In this document: positions 44,961 through 62,566 of the stretch, piece after piece | Position numbering within the stretch: position 1 is the first letter of the stretch | Layout: the number at the start of each line of letters is the position of its first letter | NCBI GenBank assembly: GCA_017547885.1 | Contig: JAFYOP010000005.1 | Location: forward strand, 1-64,000 | Source: Clostridia bacterium | GTDB taxonomy: Bacteria; Bacillota; Clostridia; Christensenellales; CAG-138 | Reading direction: 5' to 3' | DNA: 64,000 nucleotides | Program-made: the position numbers and the translations under genes | The notes under the pieces: model-generated | Databases searched by the model: none | What the model was told of the DNA's origin: nothing | The model's input: the letters and a program-made list of their open reading frames with translations, nothing else

Positions 44961-44988
44961 AGACTTTCGCAGTCGGGTGCGAGAGTCT
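44961..44988. promoter_or_regulatory. Inverted repeat just upstream of the defence promoter
   Basis: AGACTTTCGC (44961-44970) and GCGAGAGTCT (44979-44988) are near-perfect inverted repeats (one mismatch), with centre-to-centre spacing of 18 bp, ending one base before the -35 of the XRE/methylase promoter. A likely operator for the XRE protein encoded 64 nt downstream; no T-tract follows, so it is not a terminator. Confidence 0.5.
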
Positions 44989-44989
44989 A

Positions 44990-45018
44990 TTGTTATGTGA
45001 TCAGGTTAGGAGTATAAT
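44990..45018 (+). promoter_or_regulatory. Promoter of the XRE/DISARM-like operon
   Basis: TTGTTA (44990-44995), 17-bp spacer, TATAAT (45013-45018). The expected start is near 45025, about 27 nt before the XRE GTG codon. Confidence 0.75.
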
Positions 45019-45051: not shown

Positions 45052-45264
45052 GTGGCAATTTCTTATAACAAGCTTTGGAAGCTCCTTGTGGATAAAAAGA
45101 TGAGCAAGGCTGACCTGCGCAAAGCGGCAGGAATTGCTCCGAATACCATGACGCGCTTGCGCCGTGATGAGGAAGTGACACTTGCGGTGTTGCATAAAAT
45201 ATGTTCAACATTGGATGTGGATATTGGGGATATTATGTCTTTTCTTCCAGATGAGGAAGAATGA
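45052..45264 (+). CDS. XRE-family regulator at the head of the defence operon
   Basis: 70 residues from a GTG with GGAGG 10 nt upstream. It is the compact Cro/CI-type HTH: SKADLRKAAGIAPNTMTRLRRDEEVTLAVLHKICSTLDVDIGDI. Small XRE proteins of this kind often control restriction-modification and phage-defence operons so that the methylase is made first. It is followed within 81 nt by the C5 methylase and preceded by an inverted repeat next to its promoter, which supports autoregulation of the whole operon. Confidence 0.88.
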   Translation: MAISYNKLWKLLVDKKMSKADLRKAAGIAPNTMTRLRRDEEVTLAVLHKICSTLDVDIGDIMSFLPDEEE

Positions 45265-45345
45265 GTTCTCGTATGCACAGTATTCCATTTAAGCGGATTG
45301 ATTTAGACGCGCGATCAAGAGTAATTTAGAATGGTGGAGCGGATT

Positions 45346-46620
45346 ATGCCAAAATATCTTGACTTGTTTGCTGGCGCGGGTGGCCTATCAGAAGGATTTG
45401 TCCGTGCCGGATATGAGCCTGTTGCTCACGTGGAAATGGATGTGGCTGCATGCTATAGCCTTAGGACCCGTGCAGCATATCATTGGCTTAAAAAGGAGAA
45501 CAAAATAAGTATATATCACAAGTATCTCAACAACGAAATCTCTCGTAGTGAGTTTTATGAGCACGTTCCCAAGCCAGTTTTGGAATCGGTATTAAACTAC
45601 GAGATATCGGAGGAAACACTGCCTCCTATTTTCTCGAAGATTGATGCCATACTAGATGGAAAACAGTTGGATCTGATAGTTGGTGGTCCACCTTGCCAAG
45701 CGTACTCTATTGCGGGGCGATCCCGCTCTGAGAACAAGATGGTTGGAGACAAGAGAAACTATCTCTATAAACTGTATGCAGAGTTTTTGAAGCACTACCA
45801 GCCTAAATACTTTGTGTTTGAAAATGTGGTCGGGCTATTGTCTGCAAAAGACGAAGACGGTACGATGCATCTGGACAATATGCGTAAACTATTTAATGAT
45901 TACGGTTATTCTACGGAATTCCGCACATTAAATGCATTAGATTACGGTGTTCTCCAAAATAGAAGAAGAATTATTCTGATTGGAAAACGAGGAGAGCATG
46001 AAGGATTTTATCCTAAGATTCCTACGGTTGAAAATGCTTTTAAGGTAGATGAGCTGTTTTCTGATTTGCCTTCAATCCAATCTGGAGAAGGCGTTATTAC
46101 GCCAGTAAAAACCAATCCATATCTGGGTAAGTATCTTTACAATTCAGGGATCAAAGAGTATGACCAAGAACCGGTTACATTCCATCAAGCTCGTCCTCAC
46201 ACAAAACAGGATTTGGAAATCTATCGTATTATTGTAGAGTCTTGGAATGAAAAGAATGTGCGAATTTCCTATACCGATCTGCCAGAAAGACTCCGTACCC
46301 ACAACAACACGAAGTGCTTCTTGGACCGTTTTAAAGTAGTTGCAGGGAATCTTTCATACGCGCAGACTGTAGTGGCGCATATTTGTCGTGATGGACACTA
46401 CTACATTCATCCCGATATCAAACAAAACAGATCTCTGACACCCAGAGAAGCTGCGAGAATCCAGACCTTCCCGGACAATTATTATTTCGAATCTGTTACC
46501 GTAAAACCATCACGAACTCTGGCTTATAAGCAGATAGGAAATGCAGTTCCGGTTTGCTTGGCCCACAGTGTAGCAAAAGCATTATTGGATCGATTTGTAA
46601 AGGATGAGAACAATGACTAA
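45346..46620 (+). CDS. DNA (cytosine-5) methyltransferase, DrmMII-like
   Basis: 424 residues from the ATG at 45346 (GGAG upstream); an ATG 15 nt earlier is possible. All C5-methylase motifs are visible: I DLFAGAGGLSEGF, IV GGPPCQAYSIAGR with the catalytic Pro-Cys, VI FENV, VIII LQNRRRI, and X KQIGNAVPV. The target recognition domain lies between VIII and X. It would mark host DNA as self for the DISARM-like system downstream. The matching Vsr gene near the operon end supports 5-methylcytosine chemistry. Confidence 0.92.
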   Translation: MPKYLDLFAGAGGLSEGFVRAGYEPVAHVEMDVAACYSLRTRAAYHWLKKENKISIYHKYLNNEISRSEFYEHVPKPVLESVLNYEISEETLPPIFSKIDAILDGKQLDLIVGGPPCQAYSIAGRSRSENKMVGDKRNYLYKLYAEFLKHYQPKYFVFENVVGLLSAKDEDGTMHLDNMRKLFNDYGYSTEFRTLNALDYGVLQNRRRIILIGKRGEHEGFYPKIPTVENAFKVDELFSDLPSIQSGEGVITPVKTNPYLGKYLYNSGIKEYDQEPVTFHQARPHTKQDLEIYRIIVESWNEKNVRISYTDLPERLRTHNNTKCFLDRFKVVAGNLSYAQTVVAHICRDGHYYIHPDIKQNRSLTPREAARIQTFPDNYYFESVTVKPSRTLAYKQIGNAVPVCLAHSVAKALLDRFVKDENND

Positions 46621-48652
46621 TAATCAGACAATGGCAATGTTCTATCAAAACTTCATGGAAGAAGTTTTGTTTGCTGCGGATAAAGAAACAAGTGGCTGGA
46701 CAACAGAAGATTTTCTCACATCTGTTATGCTGGAATATCTCGAAGAGGCCGGAGAGGTAACCGACCCTATTATTTGTCCGTTCAGAGGCCGTGGACTGCA
46801 GTTAAATGCGTACGCATTCTCGGAGGACTGCGAAAATATTGATATCTTTGTAAGTATCTTTTCGGATAATGATGTTCCACGTTCTGTCTCGCAAACGGAT
46901 GTTGATGCCTCAATAAAGAGAGCTATAGAGCTTTATCACAGGGCAACTAATGATCTGTATACCGCATTTCAAAAAGATAACGATACCTACGAGTTCGCAA
47001 TCTCTATTTTTCAGAATAGAAGCAATATTAAAACGGTTCGAATCTGTGCATTGACCAATGGATTGGTAAAACCGATCCCGTTCAAGAATATTACAATTGG
47101 TGGAGCGGAAGTGTCCTTTAATATCTGGGATATCGACCGTCTATATCGTTGTGTTTCTTCAGGAAAAATGCGTGAAACTATCGAGATTGATTTTGAAGAA
47201 AAATTCCAGAAGACAATTCCCTGTATTGAGAACAGCACAAGTGACAAGTACAGTGTTTACCTTGCCATTATCAATGGCGAGCTTTTGGCAGCGCTTTATG
47301 ATGAATTCCGGGACAGGCTTCTTGAGAAGAATGTGCGCTCTTTTCTACAGGTGAAGGGCGGCGTCAACAAGGGAATTCGTGATACGCTGAGAGATGAACC
47401 GGACATGTTCCTGGCATACAACAATGGTATTTCTGTTACTGCAGAAAGTGTAGAGATTGTTCGCGACGAAAATGGCAAGCCGTCCATTAAAAGCATCAGA
47501 GATATGCAAATTGTTAACGGCGGCCAGACAACGGCATCCATTTTCAATGCTCGGAATGATAAGAAAATTGCGGCCGACCTGTCGAAAGTGTTCGTTCAGA
47601 TGAAGTTGTCTGTCATCCAATCGACGGAGGCGATGGACGAGATTGTGCCCAGAATTTCTACTTTTGCAAATACGCAGAACAAAATTCAGGTTGCTGACTT
47701 CTCTGCAAATGATCCTTTCCACAGACGAATTGAAGAACTGTCCAGAACAGTATGGGCTCCCGCTCAGAGCGGTATGAAGCCTCAAAACTGGTTCTATGAG
47801 CGTGCCCGTGGCCAGTACGCAGACATGCTGTCCAGAGAGTCTACTCCCAAACGCAAGAAAGAATACAAGGAAACTCACCCGCTGTTTACAAAGACTGATT
47901 TGGCGAAATACGAAAACACATGGGATCAGCTTCCTTATCAGGTCAGTGAAGGCGCGCAGAAAAACTTCCACAAGTTTATGCTGCGGTTGAAAGATTACAA
48001 GGGTTTTGTTCCTGATGAAGCTTATTACCATAATCTGATTGCCAAAGCAATCCTGTTCCGTCAGACAGAAAAGCTTGTTCAAAAGCAACAGTACGGCGGC
48101 TACAGGGCCAATATTGTTACATACACGCTCGCTTTCCTGTCCTACAAGACTGCACAGCGTATTGACCTTGAGCGGATATGGAAGGAACAGACTCTCACAC
48201 CGGCTCTTGAATGGGAGATTATTGAAGTTTCCAAGTTTGTTCAAAAGTTGATTGTAAATCCTCCTGGCGGAGCAAACGTTGGAGAATGGTGTAAAAAAGA
48301 AAAGTGCTGGCAGGCAATTCGTGACTACGAATATGTGATCAGTGACGCGCTGCAGGGAGAATTGATTTCCGTAGCACGGCCTACTGCGGGTCCGCAACCG
48401 GCAACCAGCAGCATTGCATCGCTTACAGAGGAAGACCAGAAATTGATTGATACTGTTGCAGCCATTCCTGCTGAGACTTGGTTTGCGTTGTCCAGATGGG
48501 CAAAAGAAACCAAGAACTTCCAGCCGTGGCAAAGAAGCTTGCTGTTCTCTGTTGGTGGAGTTGTCGGAAGAGGCCAAAAACCGAGTATTAAACAAGCCGG
48601 TCATGCGATGAAAGCTTATAACGAAGCGCTTACTAAGGGATTTAGCATCTGA
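46613..48652 (+). CDS. AIPR-family abortive-infection protein
   Basis: 679 residues from the ATG at 46613, overlapping the methylase stop and preceded by AAGGATGAG; an ATG 9 nt earlier is in frame. The AIPR domain is clear in the middle: FLQVKGGVNKGIRDTL, then MFLAYNNGISVTAE and the hallmark MQIVNGGQTTASIFNA (about 300). The C-terminal 300 residues are helical. AIPR proteins are linked by gene context and early plasmid studies to abortive infection and restriction-like loci; the chemistry is not settled. AIPR as an integral gene of a DISARM-like operon is unusual. Confidence 0.85.
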   Translation: MTNNQTMAMFYQNFMEEVLFAADKETSGWTTEDFLTSVMLEYLEEAGEVTDPIICPFRGRGLQLNAYAFSEDCENIDIFVSIFSDNDVPRSVSQTDVDASIKRAIELYHRATNDLYTAFQKDNDTYEFAISIFQNRSNIKTVRICALTNGLVKPIPFKNITIGGAEVSFNIWDIDRLYRCVSSGKMRETIEIDFEEKFQKTIPCIENSTSDKYSVYLAIINGELLAALYDEFRDRLLEKNVRSFLQVKGGVNKGIRDTLRDEPDMFLAYNNGISVTAESVEIVRDENGKPSIKSIRDMQIVNGGQTTASIFNARNDKKIAADLSKVFVQMKLSVIQSTEAMDEIVPRISTFANTQNKIQVADFSANDPFHRRIEELSRTVWAPAQSGMKPQNWFYERARGQYADMLSRESTPKRKKEYKETHPLFTKTDLAKYENTWDQLPYQVSEGAQKNFHKFMLRLKDYKGFVPDEAYYHNLIAKAILFRQTEKLVQKQQYGGYRANIVTYTLAFLSYKTAQRIDLERIWKEQTLTPALEWEIIEVSKFVQKLIVNPPGGANVGEWCKKEKCWQAIRDYEYVISDALQGELISVARPTAGPQPATSSIASLTEEDQKLIDTVAAIPAETWFALSRWAKETKNFQPWQRSLLFSVGGVVGRGQKPSIKQAGHAMKAYNEALTKGFSI

Positions 48653-48672
48653 TTGTGTGAGGAGGGACTCGT

Positions 48673-51291
48673 ATGTTGGAATGGCAGGATTATGTGTCTC
48701 AATTGCTTAGTGATTCAAGCAGTTTTGATGGGATCAGTCTGTCTTTTGAAGGCTCGCAAGAAGAACTGGCTATTCCGCTTCTTAACACAAAGAAGGCAGT
48801 TGATGTTCCTCCCATTATCAAAACCAGCATTCTTATGCTGGATAAAATGCAGATGCATCAGGGAAAGTTGAATATTCTTGTTTTTCCGGAAAGAATTCAG
48901 TCCATCTTTATTTTCACACTTGTAAAACTCCTCTATAACATATCGGAAGGTAAGATAGACCATGCCTATGATCCTGCGTCCTTTAAAAAGGGGGACAAGC
49001 TTAGATTTGAAAGTGCGGTCGTTGAATTCGATTCTGTAGAGGAAAAGAATGGCGAAAAACGCATGAAAATCCGACTTGCAGATGGACTTACCATAAGTGC
49101 ATCCGTTGAGTATTTTCCGTTGTTTCAACGTACGAACACCAAGAAAAAACTGAGCACAAATAAGCAGTACGTTGAAGCAAAGAAAGAAACTGCCAAAAAG
49201 ATTGTCCAGATGTCTGCTGATCAGAAATATCTGAAGCTGCTTGCAGATCATAAGACACACATGGAGAATTCCATTGTAAATATGACCTCAATCATAAACA
49301 CCAAGCAGATGATAAGCAGCTGCAAACTGTGTGGACAGAATATCAAAGATGCAATCCTTGTCGGACAAGCTGATTACACCGGCAGTGTCAAAAACATAGG
49401 ATCTGGACAATTAGGCGGAATACCCGCTATTGTTCTTGCTTCAGACTTGTATGCAATTTCAGCGATGGCCCAGAATAGACACCCAATTCAATCCATCATC
49501 ATTGACGGATCCAACGCTAATGCATTGCTGTCTCAGCTACCGGCGCTCGATGAGCTGATTCGACTTGGAGTGCCAATTACATGTGTGACAGATGTTGTAA
49601 ATTCTTTTGATCTACAAGCGTTCCAAGAACGAGGATTTAACTTGTGGCGCTGGGATGAAACCAGTCTGACAGAAAAACTATATGATGCTACACCCTTGTC
49701 GTTGGACAAAAAAACAAAGCATTGTGCAAAAAGGAAAATCAATTATGTGGTAACTGATGGCAATGAAATCAGCACTGCAATTCGTCTTTTGTATGCACAT
49801 CGAAAAGAGTCCCAAACAGCTTCTGCGCAAATGTTGAAACTGTTTGATAAGTTGTTTTCTTTTGCATTTACTGCACTTCGTGAAACTGTGCCATTTGCGT
49901 CAAGTCAATGCATTCAGATGCAATCGGTCCTGGACGAATGCTCACACTTACTTGCTGGAGAAAAAGCGTTCCTTCCAGAGAAAACATATGATGCTTATTC
50001 TACAATCATCGATTGCATGAAAAAGGTGTTTACATACGGATACCATCTGCCAAAACATGAGGCCTTGTCTTCACAATTGCGTTCGAACCATTCTCGGAGA
50101 ATTGCACTTCTTGTTCCGGAAAGGACGGACAAAAACAGAGTGCAGCAATATTGGGAAAACTGGTGCACCACCAATAGTATTTCCACAGAGGTTGAGGTCC
50201 TTTATCCTGCGGAGTATTATTTGCTCCCGTGCGGGAAGTGTGATGCAACTGTGGTTGTCGGTTGGTTAAAACGTGCTATTATGCGCAAAGCACTGTATGG
50301 CTTCAACACGCAATTCTATACTGTTCTGCTCTATGACTACGAAAAACGTTGGAAGAACTACGATACTACCAAATGGAATGCTGCCCTTGATAGCAACGAA
50401 AACCGCAAAACCATCGAAAAATCTTTTGCAACAGATAAAATCAAAGTGTCCACCAGCAGATTTGTCCCCAAACAGCTCCCTGTAGCTGAAACGCCAAAGA
50501 CAGATGAACTTACTGAAATTGAGACTGTACTGAAGGAGAATAAATTCCGTCAGTATGTTGCAAGCGGCGGCCAGAAGGCTGCCAATGAAACGACAGAAGC
50601 CATCCCTGTAAACTACGTCGGTGGTTTCCTTGCCTTTTACAGAACTGGACATAAGGTTATCTCTGCAAGCAGCATCATCGAGCAGGATGCAGATAAGATT
50701 GAAATGAAGCTTCCCGCGGAGTTGAAAATGGGAGACTTTGTTGTAGTTCGCGAAACAGATCATGACCTTGTAAAAGAAATTGCAGATGTTATTCTGGCAC
50801 GCACTGGGAAAACCGGTCTCAGAGAGTTGTCTTCCAAGTGGAAGGAAGCTCTTACCATCGAGACACTGTTCTATTCCACAGAAGAAATCTACGAAAAGCT
50901 CCAGAAAGCCGGATGTACCAGAGGTTATCAGGCTGTGTGTTCCTGGATTACAGACGATGATATGATTGCCCCGCAAAGCAAACAGGATCTGGAGCACATT
51001 GCAGTAGTTACCGGAAGTGGCGTGCTGAAAGAAAAGCTGAATCTGGTATATGAAGCTGCGCAGGCAGTTAAAGCGGCACATGTTCAGGCAGGCAGAGTAT
51101 TGTCTCTACAGCTAAGAAAGCGTGTTGCTTCTGCACTGAAAGAGTATGGAGATATTGATCCGTTCAACATCTGGGACCCTATTGAGATGCAGGTTGACGA
51201 TGTTGGTTTGGTCCGCATCTTGAAAATAATTGATATTGGTGCCCCTGTGATTGTTGACATCGCAGATACTAACCGCCTTATTGACGAGTAA
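48673..51291 (+). CDS. Large defence protein, possible DrmE-like degenerate helicase
   Basis: 872 residues, GAGGAGG upstream of a TTG/ATG start region. No P-loop is found. The middle reads like a decayed helicase core: HPIQSIIIDGSNANALLSQL in the motif II position, then GVPITCVTDVVNSFD. The second half resembles a RecA-2 lobe, with RIALLVPER and DATVVVGWLKRAIMRKAL. A CKLCGQNI Cys motif lies near 216. Class 2 DISARM systems carry a large protein, DrmE, of similar size next to a C5 methylase; I propose equivalence from position and size only. Confidence 0.55.
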   Translation: MLEWQDYVSQLLSDSSSFDGISLSFEGSQEELAIPLLNTKKAVDVPPIIKTSILMLDKMQMHQGKLNILVFPERIQSIFIFTLVKLLYNISEGKIDHAYDPASFKKGDKLRFESAVVEFDSVEEKNGEKRMKIRLADGLTISASVEYFPLFQRTNTKKKLSTNKQYVEAKKETAKKIVQMSADQKYLKLLADHKTHMENSIVNMTSIINTKQMISSCKLCGQNIKDAILVGQADYTGSVKNIGSGQLGGIPAIVLASDLYAISAMAQNRHPIQSIIIDGSNANALLSQLPALDELIRLGVPITCVTDVVNSFDLQAFQERGFNLWRWDETSLTEKLYDATPLSLDKKTKHCAKRKINYVVTDGNEISTAIRLLYAHRKESQTASAQMLKLFDKLFSFAFTALRETVPFASSQCIQMQSVLDECSHLLAGEKAFLPEKTYDAYSTIIDCMKKVFTYGYHLPKHEALSSQLRSNHSRRIALLVPERTDKNRVQQYWENWCTTNSISTEVEVLYPAEYYLLPCGKCDATVVVGWLKRAIMRKALYGFNTQFYTVLLYDYEKRWKNYDTTKWNAALDSNENRKTIEKSFATDKIKVSTSRFVPKQLPVAETPKTDELTEIETVLKENKFRQYVASGGQKAANETTEAIPVNYVGGFLAFYRTGHKVISASSIIEQDADKIEMKLPAELKMGDFVVVRETDHDLVKEIADVILARTGKTGLRELSSKWKEALTIETLFYSTEEIYEKLQKAGCTRGYQAVCSWITDDDMIAPQSKQDLEHIAVVTGSGVLKEKLNLVYEAAQAVKAAHVQAGRVLSLQLRKRVASALKEYGDIDPFNIWDPIEMQVDDVGLVRILKIIDIGAPVIVDIADTNRLIDE

Positions 51292-51304
51292 GGAGAGAAC
51301 ATCT

Positions 51305-53044
51305 ATGGCTATTATGATTCCGTCCGTTATTTCCCCGGAGATCAAATCCAATGCCGAACGCAAAATTTTTGAGTGGTTTCAGTCTGCGCCGGGCACAGAC
51401 AAGTGGATTGTTCTGCATTCTTTGGGAATTACAACACACAACAAGGTTATATATGGTGAAACAGATTTCCTTGTTTTAGCACCGCAGCTTGGCATCTTTG
51501 CGCTTGAGGTCAAGGGTGGTCGTGTAAAGCGGGAAAACGGAATCTGGTACTTTACCAACAGATACGGCAAAACCAACAGCAAAGTCCGTGGACCCTTTGA
51601 GCAAGCAAAAGACGGTATCTTCAGCATTGTGGAAGCTATGAAGAAACGTGTGGATATAGACCATCGTCACATTCCCAATGTTTTGTTTGGCTATGGAGTC
51701 TTGTTCCCGGATATTGAATACACATCTTCCGGTATTGACGAAGAGCAGTGGCAAGTCTTTGATTCCCGCGATGGAGCCGATGTTAAACAATTCATTAAGC
51801 GTCTGGCAGATGGAGCAAAGGGTAAATGGGAAGCTTTGTATGGCCCGCTGAATAAATCAAAATTACCCGACGCGGCAGATGTTCGATATATGGCCTCTAT
51901 TCTGCGTGGTGATTTTGACTGTGCTGTTGCCATGAGTGTACAGCTGCGTAATGCCAACGAAGCTCTGATTGCGTTGACGAAGGAACAGTATCGCTGCCTG
52001 GATCAGCTTGACGATAATCCCAGATATCTGATACAAGGACCGGCAGGCACGGGAAAGACACTTCTGGCAATAGAGGAAGTTAAGAAGTTTGCTGCCAGAG
52101 GAGACAAGGTTGCGCTGTTTTGTTTTAACTCCAATCTTGCGGATTGGATGAGTAATTATTTTGATGACATGCCCGAGTCCGTACGGCCGCAGTATGTAGG
52201 AACATTTCATAAGTACATGACGCAGGTGGCCAAAGACGCTGATCTTCTTCCTGTATACCCGCATGATCCTGAAAAGGTGCAGCAGTACTACCAGGAAGAT
52301 CTGCCGGAAGCAGCTGCACTTGCACTACTTGAAAGTGGTGAGTTGTACGACATTGTTGTGGTCGATGAAGCGCAGGATCTGATTCGCGACAGCTACCTGG
52401 AAGTTTTGAGCGCTAGCATTAAAAAGGGCTTGGCGAGAGGACGTTGGACCATGTTTGGCGACTTTTCGATGCAGGCTATTTATGCTGCGGGAATGTCTGG
52501 CGCTGACATGATTGAGAAGCTTGAGGATCAAACCTCTTTTATTCGCTTCAAGCTTACGGTAAATTGCAGAAACACAAAGCCGATTTGTAAAGAGATTGAG
52601 ACCGTAACTGGCTTCAAAGCTCCACACGATCTTTGGACCAAAGTGGACGGGCCGCCCGTGCAGTATATTACTTGGTCTACAATGGAAGGCCAGTGCAAAA
52701 AGTTGAAAGATGTACTGAAACAACTTGAAAATGCACATATCAATCCTGAGCAAATCACAATTTTGTCTCCGCGCAAAAAAGAGGATTCTGTTGTGTCAAT
52801 GCTTGATGGATACGTGATTAAAGATTTCAGGTTACCACCCGGAACGAACACAACATTCTGTACGATTCAAGGATACAAAGGACTTGAAAATACGGTTATC
52901 ATTCTTACAGACATTGAGGCTTTCTCGGAAGAAAAACTGATGTATGTTGGCTTGAGCAGAGCCTGCTCTGGACTCTTTGTTTTGGAATCCGATGCTGCAA
53001 AGAAGGAGTATGATGACCTTTGGGTCAGGAGGTTGCTGAAATGA
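51305..53044 (+). CDS. NERD nuclease - superfamily I helicase
   Basis: 579 residues from the ATG at 51305 with AAGGAGAG upstream; the in-frame ATG 54 nt earlier lies in the preceding gene. The N-terminal NERD domain (about 8-130) has the PD-(D/E)XK-like core YGETDFLVLAPQLGIFALEV followed by K-G-G. The helicase part has Walker A QGPAGTGKTLLA (about 260), Walker B DIVVVDEAQDL and SF1 motifs near TVNCRNTKPI, with the C-terminal VGLSRA motif VI. NERD-helicase fusions are typical of defence islands and DNA processing. Its stop overlaps the DrmA-like start as ATGA. Confidence 0.87.
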   Translation: MAIMIPSVISPEIKSNAERKIFEWFQSAPGTDKWIVLHSLGITTHNKVIYGETDFLVLAPQLGIFALEVKGGRVKRENGIWYFTNRYGKTNSKVRGPFEQAKDGIFSIVEAMKKRVDIDHRHIPNVLFGYGVLFPDIEYTSSGIDEEQWQVFDSRDGADVKQFIKRLADGAKGKWEALYGPLNKSKLPDAADVRYMASILRGDFDCAVAMSVQLRNANEALIALTKEQYRCLDQLDDNPRYLIQGPAGTGKTLLAIEEVKKFAARGDKVALFCFNSNLADWMSNYFDDMPESVRPQYVGTFHKYMTQVAKDADLLPVYPHDPEKVQQYYQEDLPEAAALALLESGELYDIVVVDEAQDLIRDSYLEVLSASIKKGLARGRWTMFGDFSMQAIYAAGMSGADMIEKLEDQTSFIRFKLTVNCRNTKPICKEIETVTGFKAPHDLWTKVDGPPVQYITWSTMEGQCKKLKDVLKQLENAHINPEQITILSPRKKEDSVVSMLDGYVIKDFRLPPGTNTTFCTIQGYKGLENTVIILTDIEAFSEEKLMYVGLSRACSGLFVLESDAAKKEYDDLWVRRLLK

Positions 53045-56000
53045 GCGATAGAAGACGTGACCAATTAATTGATTTTGTTGAAAAAGAATTCATCGGCCCG
53101 GATCCTATTGATTGGCCGGAAATGACGCAGGCAAATGGAGAGGAAATCCTCAAAACAGACCCGCCGCGCACAAGATACATTGCAGGTATTCTCTATCCGA
53201 GAGCCACAATGGATGGGCATGTTGATGTCCGTGACGGCGAGATTGAGCCTCTGGGCGAAGATGAGGGAAGTGAACGGGAACCCGAACCCGCAAGGCATGG
53301 AGGTTCGTCTCCTGAGTTTCTGGAAAATGCGGAGGAACTGATCAATCTGTCCAATGCATATCGCCAGTCTGCGGTCAGTATTACTGCCGCTGTTAAACCG
53401 GATGATGTGATCCGGGTAGAAGTATCTGCAGGTACTTATGTCACTTTAACTGTTACAGATCCCAAGACAGAGAAAAAGATCACCTCTTATCCGCGTACAG
53501 CCCTTTTATGGAACAATGACGGTGCACCGGTTCAGCTTCCTGATGCGGCGAATGGACTGGTAAAGATTCCGGTTCGAGCTACCGGACTGCAGTTCGATAT
53601 TACATATCGATACCATTTGGACGGAAGCAACATTTATACCTTTACTCTGGAAAACACAAAGCAGAGCAATGGGTCCTCTGTCAAAGATGATGATTGCTTC
53701 TTCCAGACGAAGTTTAAAATCTTCTCTGAAAAGGGTTTCTCTCCGTTGGCTGACGGACAGAGAATTACAAAGGATGAAGACTATCTGTCCAATCAGTTGC
53801 TCTATCGTGATGTACACAATTATGCCATTGGCCACGGTACTGCTGCAGATTGGGATGATGGCGAAACCGTAACCTGGATTTCTACTGCGACATTCCCTAA
53901 ATATGATATTAAGCCAATTGTGCCGAGTGCCATTGACGGTGTTTCGCTGGAAATGCTGAAGATGAGTCCGTATGGAAACTTTGGTGATACTGTTGCCGAG
54001 TTGCGCCAGATGTGCGAAAAATATCGGGAATGGATCAATGGACTTCGCGTTTTGAAAAGAACTCTGAACTCCAAGTATGATGAGACTGCAGAACGGCATA
54101 TCAAGAATTGCGAAGAGTGCCTTTCCCGCATGGAAAAAGGTGTGGATTTGCTGGAACAGAATGAGACAGTCAGAACCGCGTTCCAGTACATGAACCTTGC
54201 CATGTTGTTGCAGCAGCTGCATTATAATCTTCCGTTGCAGCGCTGGGAAGATGATGGAAATAACGATATTAAGCTTGCAGCGCCTGTGCAGATCCCTGTT
54301 GTAAACGATCGCGAGACTTGGTATGGCAATAAGGATAGATACGGCAAATGGCGTCCTTTCCAGCTTGCCTTTGTTTTGATGAATTTGCGGTCTATGTATG
54401 ACCGGGATTGCAACGAAAGAGAAATTGTTGATCTGATATGGTTTCCCACCGGCGGCGGCAAAACGGAAGCGTACCTCGGCCTGTCTGCATATACCATCTT
54501 TATCCGTCGTCTGCTGAATAAGGATGATAAAGGCACTGCAATTCTTATGAGATACACGCTGCGACTTCTTACTGCTCAGCAGTATGAACGTGCGTCTGCA
54601 ATGATCTGTGCATGTGATTTGATTCGAAAAGAACATGAGGATCTGTTTGGTAAAAACAGGATTACTATTGGACTTTGGGTGGGTGTAGATAATACGCCTA
54701 ATAAAGTAAAGCAAGCTGTAGAGGCCTATGATAAACTCTACCGTGATGGCAGAGATAACCCCTTTGTGATGCTGAAATGCCCTTGGTGTGGAGCGCAAAT
54801 GGGACCTGTTATGAAGGGAAATAATCTCTGGGATTTGCCGGGATATAGAAAGGTACCTGGTCCAAGACGTTCCTTTGGTTTTGCTTTCCGCTGTAAGAAC
54901 CATGTATGTGATTATTCGCGTGAGGATTTACCACTGTATGTTATCGACGAGTACATTTACGAGAAAACCCCGACTTTGCTGCTTGGAACGGTAGACAAAT
55001 TTGCTATGTTGCCATTTAAGCCAGAAGCACAGCGTATTTTTGGTTTTGAAAACGGGGAAAAGAAAACTTCTCCGGATTTGATTATCCAAGATGAGCTACA
55101 TCTGATTTCGGGACCTTTGGGTTCTATGGTTGGCCACTATGAAACCCTAATTCACGAGCTTTGTGCCACCAGAACCCCCAGTGCTGAAATCTATCCAAAG
55201 ATTATTGCATCTACTGCAACAATCAGCCGCGCGAAAGAGCAGTGCCATGCATTGTACGGGTGTTCCAGAGATAAAGTTTTCCAGTTCCCGCCCTCAGGTT
55301 TGGATGCTGGTAACTCGTTCTTTGCAAAAGAGGATAAAACTCAGAATGGTCGCAGATATGTTGGTATTCTTGCAACAGGTTCTTCTTCTGATGCAACAAC
55401 AGCTATCCGCCTGTTTGCTTCCCTTTTGTACGGTGCGAAAGCCATGAAAGTTGGAAAAGAAGGAGACAGAGACCCGTACTGGACCAACATGGGATACTAT
55501 AACAGCATCCGTGAATTGGGACAGGCTGCGACTTGGATCAGGGCAGATATCGACCAGCACTTAGATGTCATGTACAAGCGACGCCATGATGATGAACGTT
55601 ATCCAACCAGAGAAGAATATCGTAAGAGCAGACGATATATCTGGAGAGATGAAGAACTTACCAGTCGTATTGCAGGAAGTGAAGTAACAGCCAGTTTGGC
55701 TAACCTTGGCATTTCGTACCCAGCTGCAGTAGACGAGGAAGGGAAAAATAAAGAACATCCGATTGATATTTGCCTTGCCACGAATATGATTTCGGTTGGC
55801 CTTGATGTGCTAAGACTCGGTCTGATGACGGTTGCAGGTCAGCCCAAAACCACTTCCGAGTATATTCAGGCGACCAGCCGTGTAGGCCGTAACGCAAAGG
55901 ATGCTCCGGGTGTGGTGTTTGTGTTATATCGCCCTGGCAGACCGCGTGATAAGTCACATTATGAGCATTTCCGGTCTTATCACTCCAGAGTATACTGTAA

Positions 56001-56448
56001 TGTTGAACCCACGAGCGTTACTCCGTTTTCTGCGCCAGTACGTGAACGAGCGCTCCATGCTATTATGATCGGTATGATGCGACTTGAAAGTGATAATGTG
56101 TATAATAGTGATCCTCCGAAGCTTCCGGATGATGCTCTCTGCGAGAAAATCTGTAACATTATTGAACGACGTGTCGAAGATGTTGATAGCGATGAGGTAG
56201 AGGCAACACAGATTGCTATGCAAACTTTTATGGAAGAGTGGGAGGCATGGAATCCTAAGCGATGGGAGCCGGCTAAAAATCCCGATTGGTCTTATGCAGA
56301 TCCGGTTCCTCTGATGTACTCTGCTGGCAGTCATCCGAACGAGCTGTGGAGAGGACAAGGTGTTGAGACACCTACATCTATGCGAACAGTAGATTCTTCA
56401 TGCGAAGCGGAAGTGCTTGCAAACCGTTATGTTCCAAAGGAGGTCTAA
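53041..56448 (+). CDS. drmA: DrmA-like SF2 helicase
   Basis: 1135 residues, starting at the ATGA overlap. A long N-terminal part is followed by the helicase core: Walker A WFPTGGGKTEAYLGLSAY (about 480), a zinc-binding insert CPWCGAQM...CKNHVCDYS, the DEAH-type box IIQDELHLISGPLGS, motif III ASTATISRA, and the C-lobe ATNMISVGLDVLRLGLM...YIQATSRVGRN (motifs V-VI). This pattern fits DrmA of DISARM. With DrmB it forms the complex that blocks incoming DNA. The zinc insert and the adjacent DUF1998 gene make the assignment strong. Confidence 0.85.
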   Translation: MSDRRRDQLIDFVEKEFIGPDPIDWPEMTQANGEEILKTDPPRTRYIAGILYPRATMDGHVDVRDGEIEPLGEDEGSEREPEPARHGGSSPEFLENAEELINLSNAYRQSAVSITAAVKPDDVIRVEVSAGTYVTLTVTDPKTEKKITSYPRTALLWNNDGAPVQLPDAANGLVKIPVRATGLQFDITYRYHLDGSNIYTFTLENTKQSNGSSVKDDDCFFQTKFKIFSEKGFSPLADGQRITKDEDYLSNQLLYRDVHNYAIGHGTAADWDDGETVTWISTATFPKYDIKPIVPSAIDGVSLEMLKMSPYGNFGDTVAELRQMCEKYREWINGLRVLKRTLNSKYDETAERHIKNCEECLSRMEKGVDLLEQNETVRTAFQYMNLAMLLQQLHYNLPLQRWEDDGNNDIKLAAPVQIPVVNDRETWYGNKDRYGKWRPFQLAFVLMNLRSMYDRDCNEREIVDLIWFPTGGGKTEAYLGLSAYTIFIRRLLNKDDKGTAILMRYTLRLLTAQQYERASAMICACDLIRKEHEDLFGKNRITIGLWVGVDNTPNKVKQAVEAYDKLYRDGRDNPFVMLKCPWCGAQMGPVMKGNNLWDLPGYRKVPGPRRSFGFAFRCKNHVCDYSREDLPLYVIDEYIYEKTPTLLLGTVDKFAMLPFKPEAQRIFGFENGEKKTSPDLIIQDELHLISGPLGSMVGHYETLIHELCATRTPSAEIYPKIIASTATISRAKEQCHALYGCSRDKVFQFPPSGLDAGNSFFAKEDKTQNGRRYVGILATGSSSDATTAIRLFASLLYGAKAMKVGKEGDRDPYWTNMGYYNSIRELGQAATWIRADIDQHLDVMYKRRHDDERYPTREEYRKSRRYIWRDEELTSRIAGSEVTASLANLGISYPAAVDEEGKNKEHPIDICLATNMISVGLDVLRLGLMTVAGQPKTTSEYIQATSRVGRNAKDAPGVVFVLYRPGRPRDKSHYEHFRSYHSRVYCNVEPTSVTPFSAPVRERALHAIMIGMMRLESDNVYNSDPPKLPDDALCEKICNIIERRVEDVDSDEVEATQIAMQTFMEEWEAWNPKRWEPAKNPDWSYADPVPLMYSAGSHPNELWRGQGVETPTSMRTVDSSCEAEVLANRYVPKEV

Positions 56449-56451
56449 ATA

Positions 56452-58293
56452 ATGTCATTTAACAATAGACCTATGCGCAGGAGTGCACTAATTGGTCCTT
56501 GGGGAGTAGGCGCAGTAGTTCCCTTTCCTAATGATGAGTCTTTGATGATTGCAGGCTTAGATATGTGGCGCTATAGTGATGCCACCCCTTTTGTAATCGA
56601 GGACGAGCGGTTACTACGTCGTTTAGGCGTGAAAGAACTTCGATGGCCTCCTGACTATAGGGAGAAAAATGAAGATAGAAACAATTGTTATTTGACAATT
56701 CCAACCGTCCGATTTCCAACTTGGCATTATTGCCCTTTCTGTGGCACTATGGAAAAGACGACATTATACCAACAGCAGCCTGTTTGTGAGTGTTATCCGT
56801 GGCCGAATGGTAGAAAATGTAATCCGTCTTTTCGCCATAAACGCCGACTGATACCTGAGCGATTTATTATTATATGCCCGGATGGACATGTTGATGATTT
56901 TCCGGTAGCTGAATGGTTACACCAGAAACCAGGTTACAAGTATAATCCCGCTACATGCAAAATAAGACGAAGTACTGGCGGTTCATCGGCATCCTTAAGT
57001 GGTGTTTATTATGAATGCTCATGTGGTGCAAAAGAGAGCATAGCTGGGGCAACAAAACCAGGTGCATTATCAAGGATTGGGTATAAATGCAGAGCTTCGA
57101 AACCATGGTTAGGTATGGAGTCAGATGATGATCATCCGTGTGAAAATTCTGATGTTCGAGTTGTTCTGCGGGGTGCTACAAATGTATGGTATGCAGATAC
57201 GCGGAGTTCGATCTTCATACCTACAGATGATGATCATACACAAAAGAAAATTCTCGCAATTTTAGATGAGTATTATGATGTGCTAAGTGCCGCCAGAATA
57301 GATGGGGAATGGAACCGTGTACCAATTGATCGGCTTGCTGAACGTAATCATGTTGACCCAAATGAACTGTATCAGGCTTTTCTGCGCCGCGAGCAAGGAA
57401 TGGATGTTATCTTAACAGTTTCCGAAGAAATGACGGAAGACGAATACAGATTAGCTGAGTACAAGGTCTTAGTGAAGAGCTGCGGGAATGATGGACAACC
57501 CTTTCATTCGAAAAATTACCCGATTTCTTGGTATGACCCAGTAATCAGCAAATACTTTAAAAGTGTTTCACTTGTGCACAAGCTTCAGGAAACCAGAGCA
57601 TTTATTGGTTTTTCTCGCGTAGAACCAAAAGAATTGCCAATTTCTGAACGCAAGAAGATGTTGCGGCTTGGTAATGAAAACTGGCTGCCTGCCATCCAGG
57701 TCAAGGGAGAGGGAATCTTCTTCGAATTCAATAAAGATGCTTTGGAGGAGTGGGCGAAACGGCCTGCTGTTCTGAGACGTATAAAAACCTTGCAGGATTC
57801 CTACAAAAACTCCAAATTTGGCGCAAATGCAGGCGGTGAACTGCGGCCTGAGTTTTTGCTGATCCATACATTTGCTCATTTGTTGATTAATCAGCTCAGT
57901 TTTGAGTGTGGTTATGGTAGTTCCTCTATCCGGGAACGTATATACTGTGAAAAGGCTACAAATGAGCATGGTATGTATGGTGTTCTGATTTACACTGCAT
58001 CTGGCGATTCGGAAGGATCTCTTGGTGGTCTGGTGCGTCAGGGTGAAAGAAAGCGCATTGAGGACACTATTCGCGATGCGGTAAGAAATGCTACCTGGTG
58101 TTCTGCGGATCCTGTGTGTATTCAGTCCTTGGGACAAGGTCCTGAGTCGTGTAATCTGGCTGCATGCCATAACTGCGCTTTGTTACCTGAAACCTGCTGC
58201 GAATGTGGCAACCGGCTTCTGGACAGAGGTGTTGTGGTTGGCGATCTCGAAGATAAGACCATAGGTTTCTTCTCAGAGCTTTGCAATCAGTGA
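56452..58293 (+). CDS. drmB: DrmB-like DUF1998 protein
   Basis: 613 residues, perfect AAAGGAGG upstream, 3 nt after drmA. Zinc-type Cys pairs near the N-terminus (HYCPFCGTM, CECYPW) and repeated later (YYECSCGAKE). The DUF1998 domain at the C-terminus is marked by LLIHTFAHLLINQLSFECGY, GVLIYTASGDSEGSLGGLV and a final Cys cluster CHNCALLPETCCECGNRLLD. DUF1998 proteins act with DrmA in DISARM; the pair is the conserved core of all classes. Confidence 0.88.
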   Translation: MSFNNRPMRRSALIGPWGVGAVVPFPNDESLMIAGLDMWRYSDATPFVIEDERLLRRLGVKELRWPPDYREKNEDRNNCYLTIPTVRFPTWHYCPFCGTMEKTTLYQQQPVCECYPWPNGRKCNPSFRHKRRLIPERFIIICPDGHVDDFPVAEWLHQKPGYKYNPATCKIRRSTGGSSASLSGVYYECSCGAKESIAGATKPGALSRIGYKCRASKPWLGMESDDDHPCENSDVRVVLRGATNVWYADTRSSIFIPTDDDHTQKKILAILDEYYDVLSAARIDGEWNRVPIDRLAERNHVDPNELYQAFLRREQGMDVILTVSEEMTEDEYRLAEYKVLVKSCGNDGQPFHSKNYPISWYDPVISKYFKSVSLVHKLQETRAFIGFSRVEPKELPISERKKMLRLGNENWLPAIQVKGEGIFFEFNKDALEEWAKRPAVLRRIKTLQDSYKNSKFGANAGGELRPEFLLIHTFAHLLINQLSFECGYGSSSIRERIYCEKATNEHGMYGVLIYTASGDSEGSLGGLVRQGERKRIEDTIRDAVRNATWCSADPVCIQSLGQGPESCNLAACHNCALLPETCCECGNRLLDRGVVVGDLEDKTIGFFSELCNQ

Positions 58294-58304
58294 GGTGAGA
58301 AAAT

Positions 58305-59324
58305 ATGCTTGTAATTCTGTCACAAAAAGTGGACAGTGAATCTATATATGCAGATGAATTGTTCAACTCATATCACTATCCAGCCAAGTACAAAAACCAG
58401 CTTCACAAGGGCGATATCTTTATCTACTACCAAGGAAACCGCTTTGATAAAAGTCAGCGGTACTACTTTGGTGTTGGTACAGTCGGTGAGATTTTAACAA
58501 CGGACGGTGAGAACTATTACGCCAAATTGTTGGATTGCCAACAGTTTGAGAAAAAGGTTCCAATATATCTTCCGGATGGCGGATATATTGAGCAGTTGGG
58601 ATATGAATCGGTCAGAAAGAGTATAAATCCGCCTTGGCAAAGCTCTGTCAGACCACTGTCGCAAGAAGCTTTCGACTACATTTTGAATGCGGCGGGTGTG
58701 CAAACTGCGCCAACTACCACGGCTGCTGCCTCTGTGGACGAGCTGAAAGAAAAGCTTATGAATGCGGTTCGGGAGTTTTTCAGAGAAAACGATGTTTCCG
58801 CAATCTATCGGATTGAAAGCATTTCTGCCGCAATTGGAAGAGCAGTTTCTGCGAATGACAATTTGGATCCCGCTTCGGCAGAGACCGTTTATCAACCGGC
58901 GATATCCGCACAGGACAGGCTTAAAGACCTTCTGGAATATTGCAGAACAATGAAAATGTCGTATTCCTACAAGCCTGTGCTGATTTTGGCACTGCTGCAT
59001 GCTGCTGATAAAAATGGAGTTTTGACGGTAAGTAAGGCGGCGCAGTATTTCAGAGCTTACTATAATGACCGTCGAGCAAACGGACTTCAGGCAGAAAAGA
59101 AAAAGTGTATTTACCAAAGAGTTGATATTACCGATCAACAAATTGCCGGGAATATTATTTCTAATCCTGTGAAGGTATTGGTGGAAAGCGGCTTCTTTTT
59201 CTATAACGAGGAAGATGAAGCGTTTTTGATGTCTCCTGAGATCTGGAATGCACTTGACAGAAAGAATAAAGCGGCGCTGACTAGGATTTGCAACCAAAAG
59301 CTAAAAGACTATTTCAAAGATTGA
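58305..59324 (+). CDS. PUA/EVE-like domain protein of the defence operon
   Basis: 339 residues, GAGGTGAG upstream, 11 nt after drmB. The N-terminal 125 residues (YKNQLHKGDIFIYYQGNR, then YYFGVGTVGEI and YYAKLLDC) look like a PUA/EVE/ASCH-type beta barrel, a fold that reads modified bases or RNA in several type IV restriction systems. The C-terminal 120 residues (SYKPVLILALLHAADKNG, through SGFFFYNEEDEAFLMSPEIW) form a helical/winged unit found near other restriction genes. It could recognise modified phage DNA. It replaces the position where DrmC might be expected; no phospholipase-D HKD motif is seen. Confidence 0.6.
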   Translation: MLVILSQKVDSESIYADELFNSYHYPAKYKNQLHKGDIFIYYQGNRFDKSQRYYFGVGTVGEILTTDGENYYAKLLDCQQFEKKVPIYLPDGGYIEQLGYESVRKSINPPWQSSVRPLSQEAFDYILNAAGVQTAPTTTAAASVDELKEKLMNAVREFFRENDVSAIYRIESISAAIGRAVSANDNLDPASAETVYQPAISAQDRLKDLLEYCRTMKMSYSYKPVLILALLHAADKNGVLTVSKAAQYFRAYYNDRRANGLQAEKKKCIYQRVDITDQQIAGNIISNPVKVLVESGFFFYNEEDEAFLMSPEIWNALDRKNKAALTRICNQKLKDYFKD

Positions 59325-59344
59325 TGTGTGAAGGAGGGACTGTT

Positions 59345-59770
59345 GTGGCAGACGTACACACACCGGAACAGCGGAGCTACAACATGTCCCGCATCCGTGG
59401 CAAAGACACAAAGCCAGAGGAACTGGTCCGGAAGTATCTGTTCTCCCAAGGCTTTCGGTACAGAAAGAATGATGTCCGGCTTCCAGGGAAACCGGACATC
59501 GTTCTGCCGAAATATAAGACCGTAATTTTTGTGAATGGGTGCTTTTGGCATGCACATGAAGGCTGTAAATATTTTGTGTGGCCGAAGAATCACAAGGAGT
59601 TTTGGGAAAACAAGATACAAGGAAATGTACAGCGTGATATTAAAAATCAAAAGGTACTTGAGGATTTAGGGTGGCACATTATAATTGTTTGGGAATGCGA
59701 GCTAAAACCAACTATCCGTGAGCACACACTTGCAAAATTGGCAGAAGCAATTCGAAAAATTGGTGACTAA
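59345..59770 (+). CDS. vsr: Very short patch repair endonuclease Vsr
   Basis: 141 residues from a GTG with AAGGAGGG 6 nt upstream, the normal Vsr length. Motifs: MSRIRGKDTKPEELVRK at the start, the active-site Asp in GKPDIVLPKYK, NGCFWHAHEGCKY with zinc and intercalation residues, WENKIQGNVQRD, and ending in VWECEL. Vsr nicks T:G mismatches made when 5-methylcytosine deaminates, protecting the host from methylase-driven mutation. Its inclusion fits the C5 methylase at the operon head. Confidence 0.92.
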   Translation: MADVHTPEQRSYNMSRIRGKDTKPEELVRKYLFSQGFRYRKNDVRLPGKPDIVLPKYKTVIFVNGCFWHAHEGCKYFVWPKNHKEFWENKIQGNVQRDIKNQKVLEDLGWHIIIVWECELKPTIREHTLAKLAEAIRKIGD

Positions 59771-59866
59771 ATGATTCACGATATGATCGATTTTTACAGA
59801 ACTATGAAACCGACATATGAAAATCGTGGTTCGATTTCTCACTTTGACTAAGGAGGTGTAGTAATT

Positions 59867-60823
59867 TTGGAAATCCCTATTACATTGCTTTCGGATGAAA
59901 AAGGATATTTCGACCGAGAATGTCCTAACGAAAACTGCCTGTACACCTTCAAAATCTATATGGAGGACTGGAAAGAAAAAGTATCTGACGAGGAAATCCA
60001 TTGCCCTATGTGCGGTCATATTGATACTTCAGAGAAATGGTGGACACAAAAGCAGTTGGAAGGAATGCAAAATCTCGCAGCTGACTATGCTATGTCTCTG
60101 ATTTCTGCAAAACTTGATGAAGCCTTTGGCGGCTTGGCTCGTTCTACGCGTCGTAACAAGTTTGTGAAAATTACATATAAGCCCGGACATAGGATTACAT
60201 TCCAAAACAACCCTATTGGTCAGAGCGAAGAATGGGAAACTGACATTACTTGTGAAGAGTGTGGAACAAGATATAGTGTAATTGGTTCTGCATATTTCTG
60301 CCCTTGCTGTGGTCATAACTCTGCAGTGAATGCGTTTGACGAATCAATGGATAGCGTTGAAAAAATGTTGGCTTCTCTTCCGGAAATGAAGCAAATGCTA
60401 ACTGCTTCCTATGGCAGAGACAAGGCAGAAACTATGTGCCGTGGCCTATTAGAAAGCTCTATTGGTGACATAGTATCTGCATTCCAGAAATTTGCAGCCT
60501 GCCACTATGATAAGCTGACCGGAAAGTCATCCAGGGTAAACGACTTCCAAATCGTTGAAAAGGGAAGTCGGCTGTACAAAGATGCAACCGGAAAGGGTTA
60601 CGAAGAATGGTTGTCTGATAAAGAACTGAGTGAAATGAATATGCTGTTTCAACGCAGGCACTTGATTGAGCATAACAACGGTATGGTTGATCAGAAATAT
60701 ATTGATAAATCCGGTGATGATTCCTATATTATAGGGCAAAGATTAGTTGTAAAGGAAAGCGATGCACTGACTTTACTGGCGATCATCAAGAAGCTCGGCA
60801 CAGGCTTATCATCAATAAAATAG
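59867..60823 (+). CDS. Zinc-ribbon protein, last gene of the defence operon
   Basis: 318 residues from a TTG with AAGGAGGT upstream. It has two zinc-binding regions: RECPNENC...HCPMCGHID at the N-terminus (about 18-60) and CEECGTRY...FCPCCGHNS (about 128-155). The C-terminal half is helical, with a QRRHLIEHNNGMVDQKYI stretch around 260-277; RR-x2-E-H/RxxxxH-like motifs of this kind occur in HEPN-type helices, so a HEPN-like end is possible but unproven. It starts 97 nt after vsr and is followed by a terminator. Confidence 0.6.
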   Translation: MEIPITLLSDEKGYFDRECPNENCLYTFKIYMEDWKEKVSDEEIHCPMCGHIDTSEKWWTQKQLEGMQNLAADYAMSLISAKLDEAFGGLARSTRRNKFVKITYKPGHRITFQNNPIGQSEEWETDITCEECGTRYSVIGSAYFCPCCGHNSAVNAFDESMDSVEKMLASLPEMKQMLTASYGRDKAETMCRGLLESSIGDIVSAFQKFAACHYDKLTGKSSRVNDFQIVEKGSRLYKDATGKGYEEWLSDKELSEMNMLFQRRHLIEHNNGMVDQKYIDKSGDDSYIIGQRLVVKESDALTLLAIIKKLGTGLSSIK

Positions 60824-60867
60824 TGCAGTAATGTTGACAGTGCGTGTTAGTTCAAATGATACGGAAA

Positions 60868-60908
60868 TCCCGAGAGTGGCAAATTGGAAGTTGCTCTCGG
60901 GATTTATT
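60868..60908. terminator. Terminator at the end of the defence operon
   Basis: TCCCGAGAG (60868-60876) pairs with CTCTCGGGA (60894-60902), then TTTATT. It also serves the broken DUF1273 gene from the other side. Confidence 0.85.
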
Positions 60909-61042: not shown

Positions 61043-61165
61043 ATAAACGCTAATATAAAAGTGATCCGTAACAGCGTAAAACGCTCATGAATAATTGAGC
61101 CACTAATAAGAGTGCTCCATAATAGTCCTGGACTATGTAGGGGGCAAGAAAAGGTGGTTATTACA

Positions 61166-62566
61166 GTGGAAGTATATGGGCAGATTCGCAAAATGCGGTT
61201 AGAGGGAATGAGCCAGCGGCAAATCGCCGCAGAACTGCATATCTCTCGTAACACCGTCAAGAAGTATTGGGATGGTGACAAGGTTCCCTGGGAGCGGAAG
61301 GATTATAGCCGGGAAGCATCTGTTGTTACAAACGAAGTGATAGCGTTTGTGCGACAGTGTCTGAATGAGGATGAACATAGTCCTCGGAAACAGCATCACA
61401 CCGCAAGGCGTATTTACGAGCGTCTGGTATCCGAATGCAGCTTTTCAGGAGGTGAAACGACCATCAGGAGATTAGTGCGTGAACTCAGGGAGAAGCAGCA
61501 GGAGGCCTTTGTGCCATTGGCATTTCCCCCAGGAGATGCGCTGCAAATCGACTGGGGTGAGGCCACAATTTATCTGAATGGTGTGAAAACTACAGTCAAT
61601 CTATTCTGTGCCCGTCTTTGCTACAGCGGCGCTCCCATGGTACTTGCTTATCGTCGTCAGAATGAAGAAAGCTTCCTGGATGCCCTGGTTCAGGTATTTC
61701 AGTATTTCGGCGGCGTTCCCAAGCGGGTGATATTTGACAATGGCAAGGTTGCCGTTAAGGATGGGTTTGGAGCCAATGCCAGAAAACAAGCCGGATATGC
61801 TGCCTTGTCCGCTCATTACGGCTTTGAAGCAGTGTTCTGCAATCCTGCTTCAGGCAATGAAAAAGGACTGGTAGAGGGCTTGGTAGGCTATATCCGCCGC
61901 AATGTCTGCGTTCCGGTTCCGCGGACAGACGATATGGATGAGCTAAACCAAATGCTTCGGGAAAGGTGCCTGAAATATCTGGATCACCATATCCGCGGAA
62001 AAGAGGCCACCGTTGGAACCATGCTTGCTCAAGAGAAAGACTCATTATATCCATTGCCCGGATATTCCTTTGATCCATGTAAGCGCACTTACGGAAGAGT
62101 AGATCGATTTTGCACTGTCCGCTTTGATACCAACAACTACTCGGTGCCCGCAGCTTATTGCGGCAGAGAAGTATCCATAAAGGCGGGACCAGAAACGGTA
62201 TCGATTCATTTTGAGGGCAAGTGTATTGCTCAGCACTGTCGCTGTCTGGAGAAGAAGAGGAACATCTATGCGCTGGAGCATTACCTTCCGTTGCTGGAAA
62301 AGAAAGGACGGGCAGTCTTTTATGCCAAGCCGGTACAGGAAACTCTTCCGGCACACTTTCTCCAATGGCTAAAGACACAGGATTTATCTCCAAAGGAGTT
62401 AGTTGAGCTTCTCAGTCGCTGCAGAGATGAAGAGTGTGAGACTATTATGATGGAGTCAGCCTGCCATATTCCCCCTGTTCGTATTGAAGATACCGTTGTG
62501 GTACAAACAGTGGATTTGCAAGCCTATGACGCATTTCTGTACGGAAAGGCAGGTACCGCAGTATGA
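61166..62566 (+). CDS. istA: IS21 transposase IstA
   Basis: 466 residues from a GTG at 61166 with AAGGTGG upstream; an in-frame earlier start is less likely. The N-terminal HTH is MSQRQIAAELHISRNTVKKY (about 16-35). The DDE catalytic core shows Asp in ALQIDWGEA (about 131), Asp in VIFDNGK (about 192) and Glu in GNEKGLVEGLVGY (about 230). The C-terminal beta domain follows. It overlaps istB by 4 nt (ATGA), the standard IS21 layout. Confidence 0.95.
   Translation: MEVYGQIRKMRLEGMSQRQIAAELHISRNTVKKYWDGDKVPWERKDYSREASVVTNEVIAFVRQCLNEDEHSPRKQHHTARRIYERLVSECSFSGGETTIRRLVRELREKQQEAFVPLAFPPGDALQIDWGEATIYLNGVKTTVNLFCARLCYSGAPMVLAYRRQNEESFLDALVQVFQYFGGVPKRVIFDNGKVAVKDGFGANARKQAGYAALSAHYGFEAVFCNPASGNEKGLVEGLVGYIRRNVCVPVPRTDDMDELNQMLRERCLKYLDHHIRGKEATVGTMLAQEKDSLYPLPGYSFDPCKRTYGRVDRFCTVRFDTNNYSVPAAYCGREVSIKAGPETVSIHFEGKCIAQHCRCLEKKRNIYALEHYLPLLEKKGRAVFYAKPVQETLPAHFLQWLKTQDLSPKELVELLSRCRDEECETIMMESACHIPPVRIEDTVVVQTVDLQAYDAFLYGKAGTAV

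Follow-up and report, generated by a model that had tools for sequence, protein, structure and literature searches.

Introduction

DISARM systems share a DrmA/DrmB core, and two classes of them have been described, comprising DrmD, DrmMI, DrmA, DrmB, and DrmC (class 1) or DrmE, DrmMII, DrmA, DrmB, and DrmC (class 2). The PLD nuclease DrmC is a required component in the PADLOC definition of type II DISARM (PMC9252829); it has also been reported to be dispensable and often absent from DISARM operons, and the recruitment of other PLD nucleases by DISARM has been proposed (PMC9142583). Here, we describe a DISARM operon at positions 45052-60823 of a 64,000-nucleotide (nt) stretch of contig JAFYOP010000005.1 from a Clostridia bacterium (the whole stretch is referred to as the window), in which a NERD nuclease fused to a superfamily 1 (SF1) helicase lies amongst the core genes. 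We conclude that the operon is probably a variant of class 2 DISARM that has a NERD helicase and no DrmC, that is, a methylation-guarded restriction system in which DrmAB and a non-catalytic DrmE would load, and the NERD-SF1 protein would unwind and cut. This offers, for one branch of the family, a specific and testable answer to the question of which nuclease acts in DISARM.

The DISARM core of the operon

The region comprises a gene for an XRE regulator and nine co-directional genes (ten in all), which the listing of open reading frames places on the + strand. DrmMII and AIPR overlap by 17 nt and NERD and DrmA by 4 nt, and the remaining gaps are short. An earlier note on this DNA, made from the sequence without database searches, had given the same coordinates, strand, gene count, and junctions, all of which were correct on re-check. 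Its proposal of a DrmA/DrmB/methylase core is borne out by profile searches, as are its assignments of the AIPR, NERD-SF1 helicase, Vsr, and zinc-ribbon genes. The gene for an 872 amino acid (aa) protein, which it had left unnamed, encodes DrmE. The five genes that make up the core are:

45331-46620, + strand: DrmMII, C5 cytosine methyltransferase (PADLOC DrmMII, 550 bits)
48673-51291, + strand: DrmE, 872 aa (NF038316, 460 bits, cut-off 80; PF24957, DrmE_C, 28.4 bits, above 27)
51305-53044, + strand: NERD nuclease-SF1 helicase (PADLOC RTasNERD-Hel, 142 bits)
53041-56448, + strand: DrmA, superfamily 2 (SF2) helicase in the short, class 2-like form (PADLOC DrmA, 718 bits)
56452-58293, + strand: DrmB (DUF1998/MZB), a separate gene (NF038324, 451 bits, cut-off 240; PF09369)

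Because DrmE is present, the core is of the class 2 type. Motifs I, IV, VI, and VIII of DrmMII are intact and, in the alignment, conserved within the window's branch, whilst the helicase motifs of DrmA are intact and conserved across the aligned proteins. In the NERD-SF1 protein, the helicase is fused to an intact PD-(D/E)xK site; the NERD D..ExK, Walker A, and DEAQD motifs are all present in the window and are conserved in 17 of the 18 aligned proteins, the exception being L101 (loci of our survey carry the prefix L), where the NERD domain is missing.

DrmE of the window is unmatched by any PADLOC model. Its structural model has a predicted local distance difference test (pLDDT) score of 82, and residues about 9-586 resemble SF2 helicases of the RIG-I/MDA5/Dicer/DEAD-box type (Foldseek E down to 2e-6; VIA Z about 12). 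A motif check of 15 DrmEs found neither Walker A nor DExH at the expected positions in any of them. Since the SF2 fold is matched and both motifs are missing, we predict that DrmE is a pseudo-helicase of SF2 fold without ATPase motifs, which gives a gene of unknown role a putative function. A sequence search of the PDB with DrmE, AIPR, and gene 8 (see below) returned nothing credible.

Recurrence of the gene order and the minimal core

A scan of 84,980 species genomes for DrmE led to three loci. Two of these (L002 and L003), from Oscillospiraceae metagenome-assembled genomes (MAGs), have the order DrmMII-AIPR-DrmE-NERD-DrmA-DrmB-gene 8-Vsr, as in the window, at 61-85% identity, and the third (L004, from a Lachnospiraceae MAG) keeps this order as far as the end of its contig. 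A scan of viral contigs for AIPR added L036, in which DrmMII-AIPR-DrmE-NERD-DrmA-DrmB is followed by McrBC (an AAA_5 protein and a DUF2357-PDDEXK_7 protein) directly after DrmB, in the position of gene 8. Protein identity over these four loci is about 57-85% for the matches measured. Thus, the distinct DISARM-related architecture suggested in the earlier note is not restricted to one genome, and profile searches found no single named system that covers every gene. The contig of L036 and L037 (IMG/VR contig IMGVR_UViG_3300021400_005384, classed as viral) also carries, upstream, a PLD-domain fragment and a RecG-like HATPase fragment that have much of their N-terminal ~60 residues in common.

Between the window and L002/L003, nonsynonymous divergence (dN) is 0.10-0.29 for all eight genes and synonymous divergence (dS) is saturated, for which reason only dN, and no dN/dS, is quoted; these values indicate strong purifying selection on all eight genes.

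DrmE scored above its cut-off in six of 398 genomes of the phylum, including the window's own. The NERD helicase adjoins DrmE in four of the other five loci (L025-L028), and not in L024. The 396 genomes of the order yielded five further DrmE-DrmA-DrmB loci, with NERD in L029 and L030 and without it in L031-L033. Searches for DrmE on plasmids and for DrmA in phages gave no match.

In a DrmA tree of 31 loci, the window falls into a clade of eight rows (support 100/100) together with L002, L003, L036, L026, L027, L029, and L030. All eight have DrmE and NERD, and none has DrmC. AIPR is found in four of the eight and is missing from L026 and L027, which are nested inside the clade, so that it was either gained once and lost once here, or gained twice. 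L026 and L027 consist of DrmMII-DrmE-NERD-DrmA-DrmB only; AIPR, gene 8, and Vsr are all missing. Directly after DrmB in L026, beside a PLD-SF2 helicase, a stretch of 27 aa matches the beginning of gene 8 and is probably a remnant. Judged by this comparison of loci, the window's branch has these five genes as its core, to which AIPR, gene 8, and Vsr are optional additions, because the two nested loci lack all three. These natural minimal copies define a five-gene core for reconstitution.

Such optional genes raise the question of whether the locus is simply a class 2 DISARM that has lost DrmC within a defence island, with NERD, AIPR, gene 8, and Vsr as independent neighbours without joint function. 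The minimal loci L026/L027, the McrBC genes after DrmB in the viral-collection contig, and a tenth gene that is private to the window locus would all fit this explanation; we nevertheless consider it improbable, given that NERD sits between DrmE and DrmA, with short junctions, in every DrmE-plus-NERD member of the clade and adjoins DrmAB in other phyla as well (on plasmids of Rhodococcus, Rhizobium, Azospirillum, Deinococcus, and Shinella), that AIPR lies between DrmMII and DrmE in five of five copies, and that purifying selection extends to all eight genes.

The NERD-SF1 helicase and the absence of DrmC

The earlier note had not seen DrmC, and profile searches of the ten genes likewise found none in the operon, which on this account falls outside the PADLOC type II definition. 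We considered, and rejected, a PLD nuclease acting in trans: PLD searches of the window's own genome (1.94 Mb, 86% complete) gave one 523-aa double-PLD protein, encoded on another contig.

Over 34 DrmA/DrmB/DrmE loci, NERD was counted in 18, DrmC in five, and both in none. Left out of the NERD count were L101, whose SF1 helicase is without a NERD domain, and L102, which had no match to the NERD gene of the window at E 1e-6. In the class 1 loci surveyed, DrmC accompanies DrmD. Taken together with its intact motifs and its position within the core, the NERD-SF1 helicase is likely the effector in place of DrmC.

A different DISARM-like cassette, with the order DrmA-DrmB-NERD, was seen in L085 (G544:C159). 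Two large unknown genes and one that is Hsp70-like precede it, and a C5 methylase is present as well.

AIPR and its relatives in MZA loci

46604-48652, + strand: AIPR protein related to MzaE (PF10592, 339 bits; PF22879, 131 bits)

The five DISARM AIPRs form one clade (support 100/100), joined at 92/95 by that of L065, an MZA-type locus. The nearest AIPRs outside DISARM are all (five of five) in loci of the GHKL-Z1 type, most of which also have Dcm and Vsr. AIPR has probably been shared between DISARM and MZA systems by transfer, the direction and route of which are inferred. MZA-type operons (L065-L069, with GHKL, Z1, DUF4420 or another gene, AIPR, Dcm, and Vsr) were observed in five of the 398 genomes of the phylum.

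This relationship lends some plausibility to a chimera of MZA and DISARM, in which AIPR would work with DrmMII and Vsr as it does in MZA (Dcm-Vsr-AIPR), and DrmE, NERD, and DrmAB would replace MutL and Z1; indeed, restriction-modification (RM) operons of the MORC/MutL type with Dcm, Vsr, and AIPR have been described (PMC2292703). We regard the chimera as doubtful. DrmMII is kept in L026/L027, which have neither AIPR nor Vsr. For DrmMII of the window, the DISARM methylase model is the top-scoring one and the relationship to the Dcm of MZA loci is weak, whilst AIPR itself misses the MzaE equivalog cut-off (NF041935, 434 bits against 1050).

AIPR/AbiU1 is an abortive-infection family with frequent RM linkage, for which a HEPN RNase domain at the N-terminus has been suggested (PMC3506569). 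The operon could accordingly be a two-tier system, with DISARM restriction backed by an AIPR-based abortive-infection arm, AIPR perhaps being an RNase toxin of the HEPN type. In our alignment, however, the sole candidate site for the HEPN motif R-x(4-6)-H is retained neither in L036 nor in any of the five AIPRs of MZA loci, which led us to reject a HEPN-type AIPR, and the gene is dispensable in L026/L027. An abortive arm, which had also been raised in the earlier note, is possible and so far unsupported, and we consider the two-tier explanation as a whole to be unlikely.

Gene 8, Vsr, and gene 10

58305-59324, + strand: gene 8, predicted DNA reader (by model, EVE/PUA-like N-terminus and sulfur-binding/winged-helix-like C-terminus)
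59345-59770, + strand: Vsr mismatch endonuclease (TIGR00632, 150 bits, cut-off 98)
59867-60823, + strand: gene 10, zinc-ribbon protein (PADLOC candidate PDC-M14A, 68 bits, residues 3-151)

Profile searches with gene 8 gave no credible family match. In its structural model, the N-terminus, which is modelled with low confidence, weakly resembles EVE/ASCH/YTH folds, with Z 6.5-7.5 for EVE proteins and the N-domain of class 1 DrmA. Residues 199-339 match Orc/Cdc6 winged helices at Z 10.5 and, at Z 9.8 and Z 9.1 respectively, the sulfur-binding domains found in SprMcrA and ScoMcrA. In Bell et al. (PMC12458937), an N-terminal EVE-like domain is reported only in class 1 DrmA; gene 8 may supply such a domain in trans, a prediction that would assign a function to a family-less gene. 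The C-terminal domain of gene 8 (58866-59321) also ends proteins of about 550-800 aa in 29 of 299 genomes of the phylum, gene 8 itself counted, and these are SF2 helicases where checked, some of them fused to a PLD domain. A search of viral contigs for relatives of gene 8 gave 18 pattern matches, none of which is a relative.

The catalytic region of Vsr is conserved, by alignment, within the window's branch. Gene 10 has no match in L002 or L003 and is private to the window among the copies seen. Of the genes that the earlier note had regarded as built into the system, AIPR, NERD-SF1, the putatively EVE-like gene, and Vsr hold up, whereas the zinc-ribbon gene is not shared by other copies and probably lies outside the system.

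Candidate regulatory elements and flanking sequence

44990-45018, + strand: best sigma-70-like promoter match, TTGTTA-17-TATAAT, upstream of XRE (consensus match only)
45052-45264, + strand: XRE/Cro-C1 regulator, GTG start (PF13443, 77.5 bits)
about 60865-60905, + strand: terminator-like hairpin (-24.5 kcal/mol, z -5.2)

The XRE gene is present in L002 and was not found in L003 or L036. The earlier note had assumed one promoter, which amounts to a consensus guess, as the region holds 43 promoter-like matches, of which the one listed is the best upstream of the operon. Its closing terminator, by comparison, is supported by the folding energy of the hairpin. Directly 5′ of the -35 element of the best promoter match lies an inverted repeat (AGACTTTCGC...GCGAGAGTCT, at 44961-44988), a possible operator or terminator. 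An IS21-type istA/istB pair (61112-63309), with both frames open, is located directly downstream of the hairpin.

Proposed mechanism

In the mechanism that we favour, DrmMII would mark host DNA with 5-methylcytosine, as is the function of its family, and DrmAB would be an SF2 motor acting on single-stranded DNA or on the ends of unmodified phage DNA, as Serratia DrmAB has reportedly been shown to do. DrmE, lacking ATPase motifs, would probably be a scaffold or DNA clamp, and the NERD-SF1 protein would probably unwind and cut, in the place held elsewhere by DrmC; these proteins may act as a complex. The optional modules would modulate this core. Gene 8 is probably a trans-acting reader of base state, a task that may fall in cis to the EVE-like domain in class 1 DrmA; Vsr would repair T:G mismatches arising from deaminated methylcytosine, and AIPR would add a second nucleotide- or DNA-dependent activity.

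Several points weigh against this reading. The anti-phage activity of the operon is itself inferred from homology. All five DrmC loci belong to one clade, and our sample is without a canonical class 2 locus with DrmC; the mutual exclusivity of NERD and DrmC across the 34 loci is therefore confounded by phylogeny and only suggestive. NERD is not obligatory, because several DrmE loci (L024, L031-L033, and L094) carry neither nuclease, and the NERD-SF1 family is also found away from DISARM (L086, L088-L091). The match between gene 8 residues 2-135 and class 1 DrmA residues 13-125 (Z 7.5) comes from an N-terminal model with a pLDDT of about 45, and the window DrmA scores 900 bits with the DrmAS model NF038325, just under the equivalog cut-off of 950.

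A bolder proposal, which we put forward only tentatively, is that such operons represent a third class of DISARM, in which NERD replaces DrmC as the effector and DrmE serves as an SF2 scaffold devoid of ATPase activity. In this class, a separate EVE/sulfur-binding-like protein, or McrBC at the same position, would perform base reading, and AIPR would be a module exchanged with MZA.

Comparison with known systems

The literature on DISARM with AIPR or NERD that we found relevant (PMC12458937, PMC10952713, and PMC9523054, as far as accessible) does not describe this gene order; subscription literature lies mostly outside this coverage, and the system may have been named before. BrxHII- and PglX-like genes and TPR-CSD/TBP genes, which define ARMADA and TALON in PMC12458937, were not found among the ten genes. 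TALON, with its ARMADA-like YprA and a NERD nuclease, resembles the window in linking a YprA-family helicase to a NERD nuclease, but, according to the same source, its YprA comes from a different clade, carries a fused RNase H fold that is inactive, and is accompanied by TPR-CSD and TBP genes. MZA (GHKL/MutL, Z1, DUF4420, and AIPR, with Dcm and Vsr) shares a related AIPR, a C5 methylase, and Vsr with the window, where profile searches of the ten genes found no GHKL/MutL, Z1, or DUF4420 gene. DISARM-like cassettes with McrBC have been the subject of a brief report (PMC11090510); L036 has McrBC right after DrmB, whereas the window carries gene 8 at that slot.

Within DISARM, the window has the DrmA/DrmB core in common with class 1, but not DrmD or DrmMI, and the EVE-like domain of class 1 DrmA, which gene 8 weakly resembles, would be a separate protein in the window. 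With class 2, it shares DrmE, DrmMII, a short DrmA, and DrmB in one operon, and it differs from that class in lacking DrmC, in having NERD-SF1 between DrmE and DrmA, and in the addition of AIPR, gene 8, and Vsr. The operon is real and recurring, and widens the scope of DISARM rather than representing a new kind of immunity; its gene families make it DISARM at the core, with DrmE and DrmMII giving it a class 2-like character and the putative effector and modules setting it apart as a variant.

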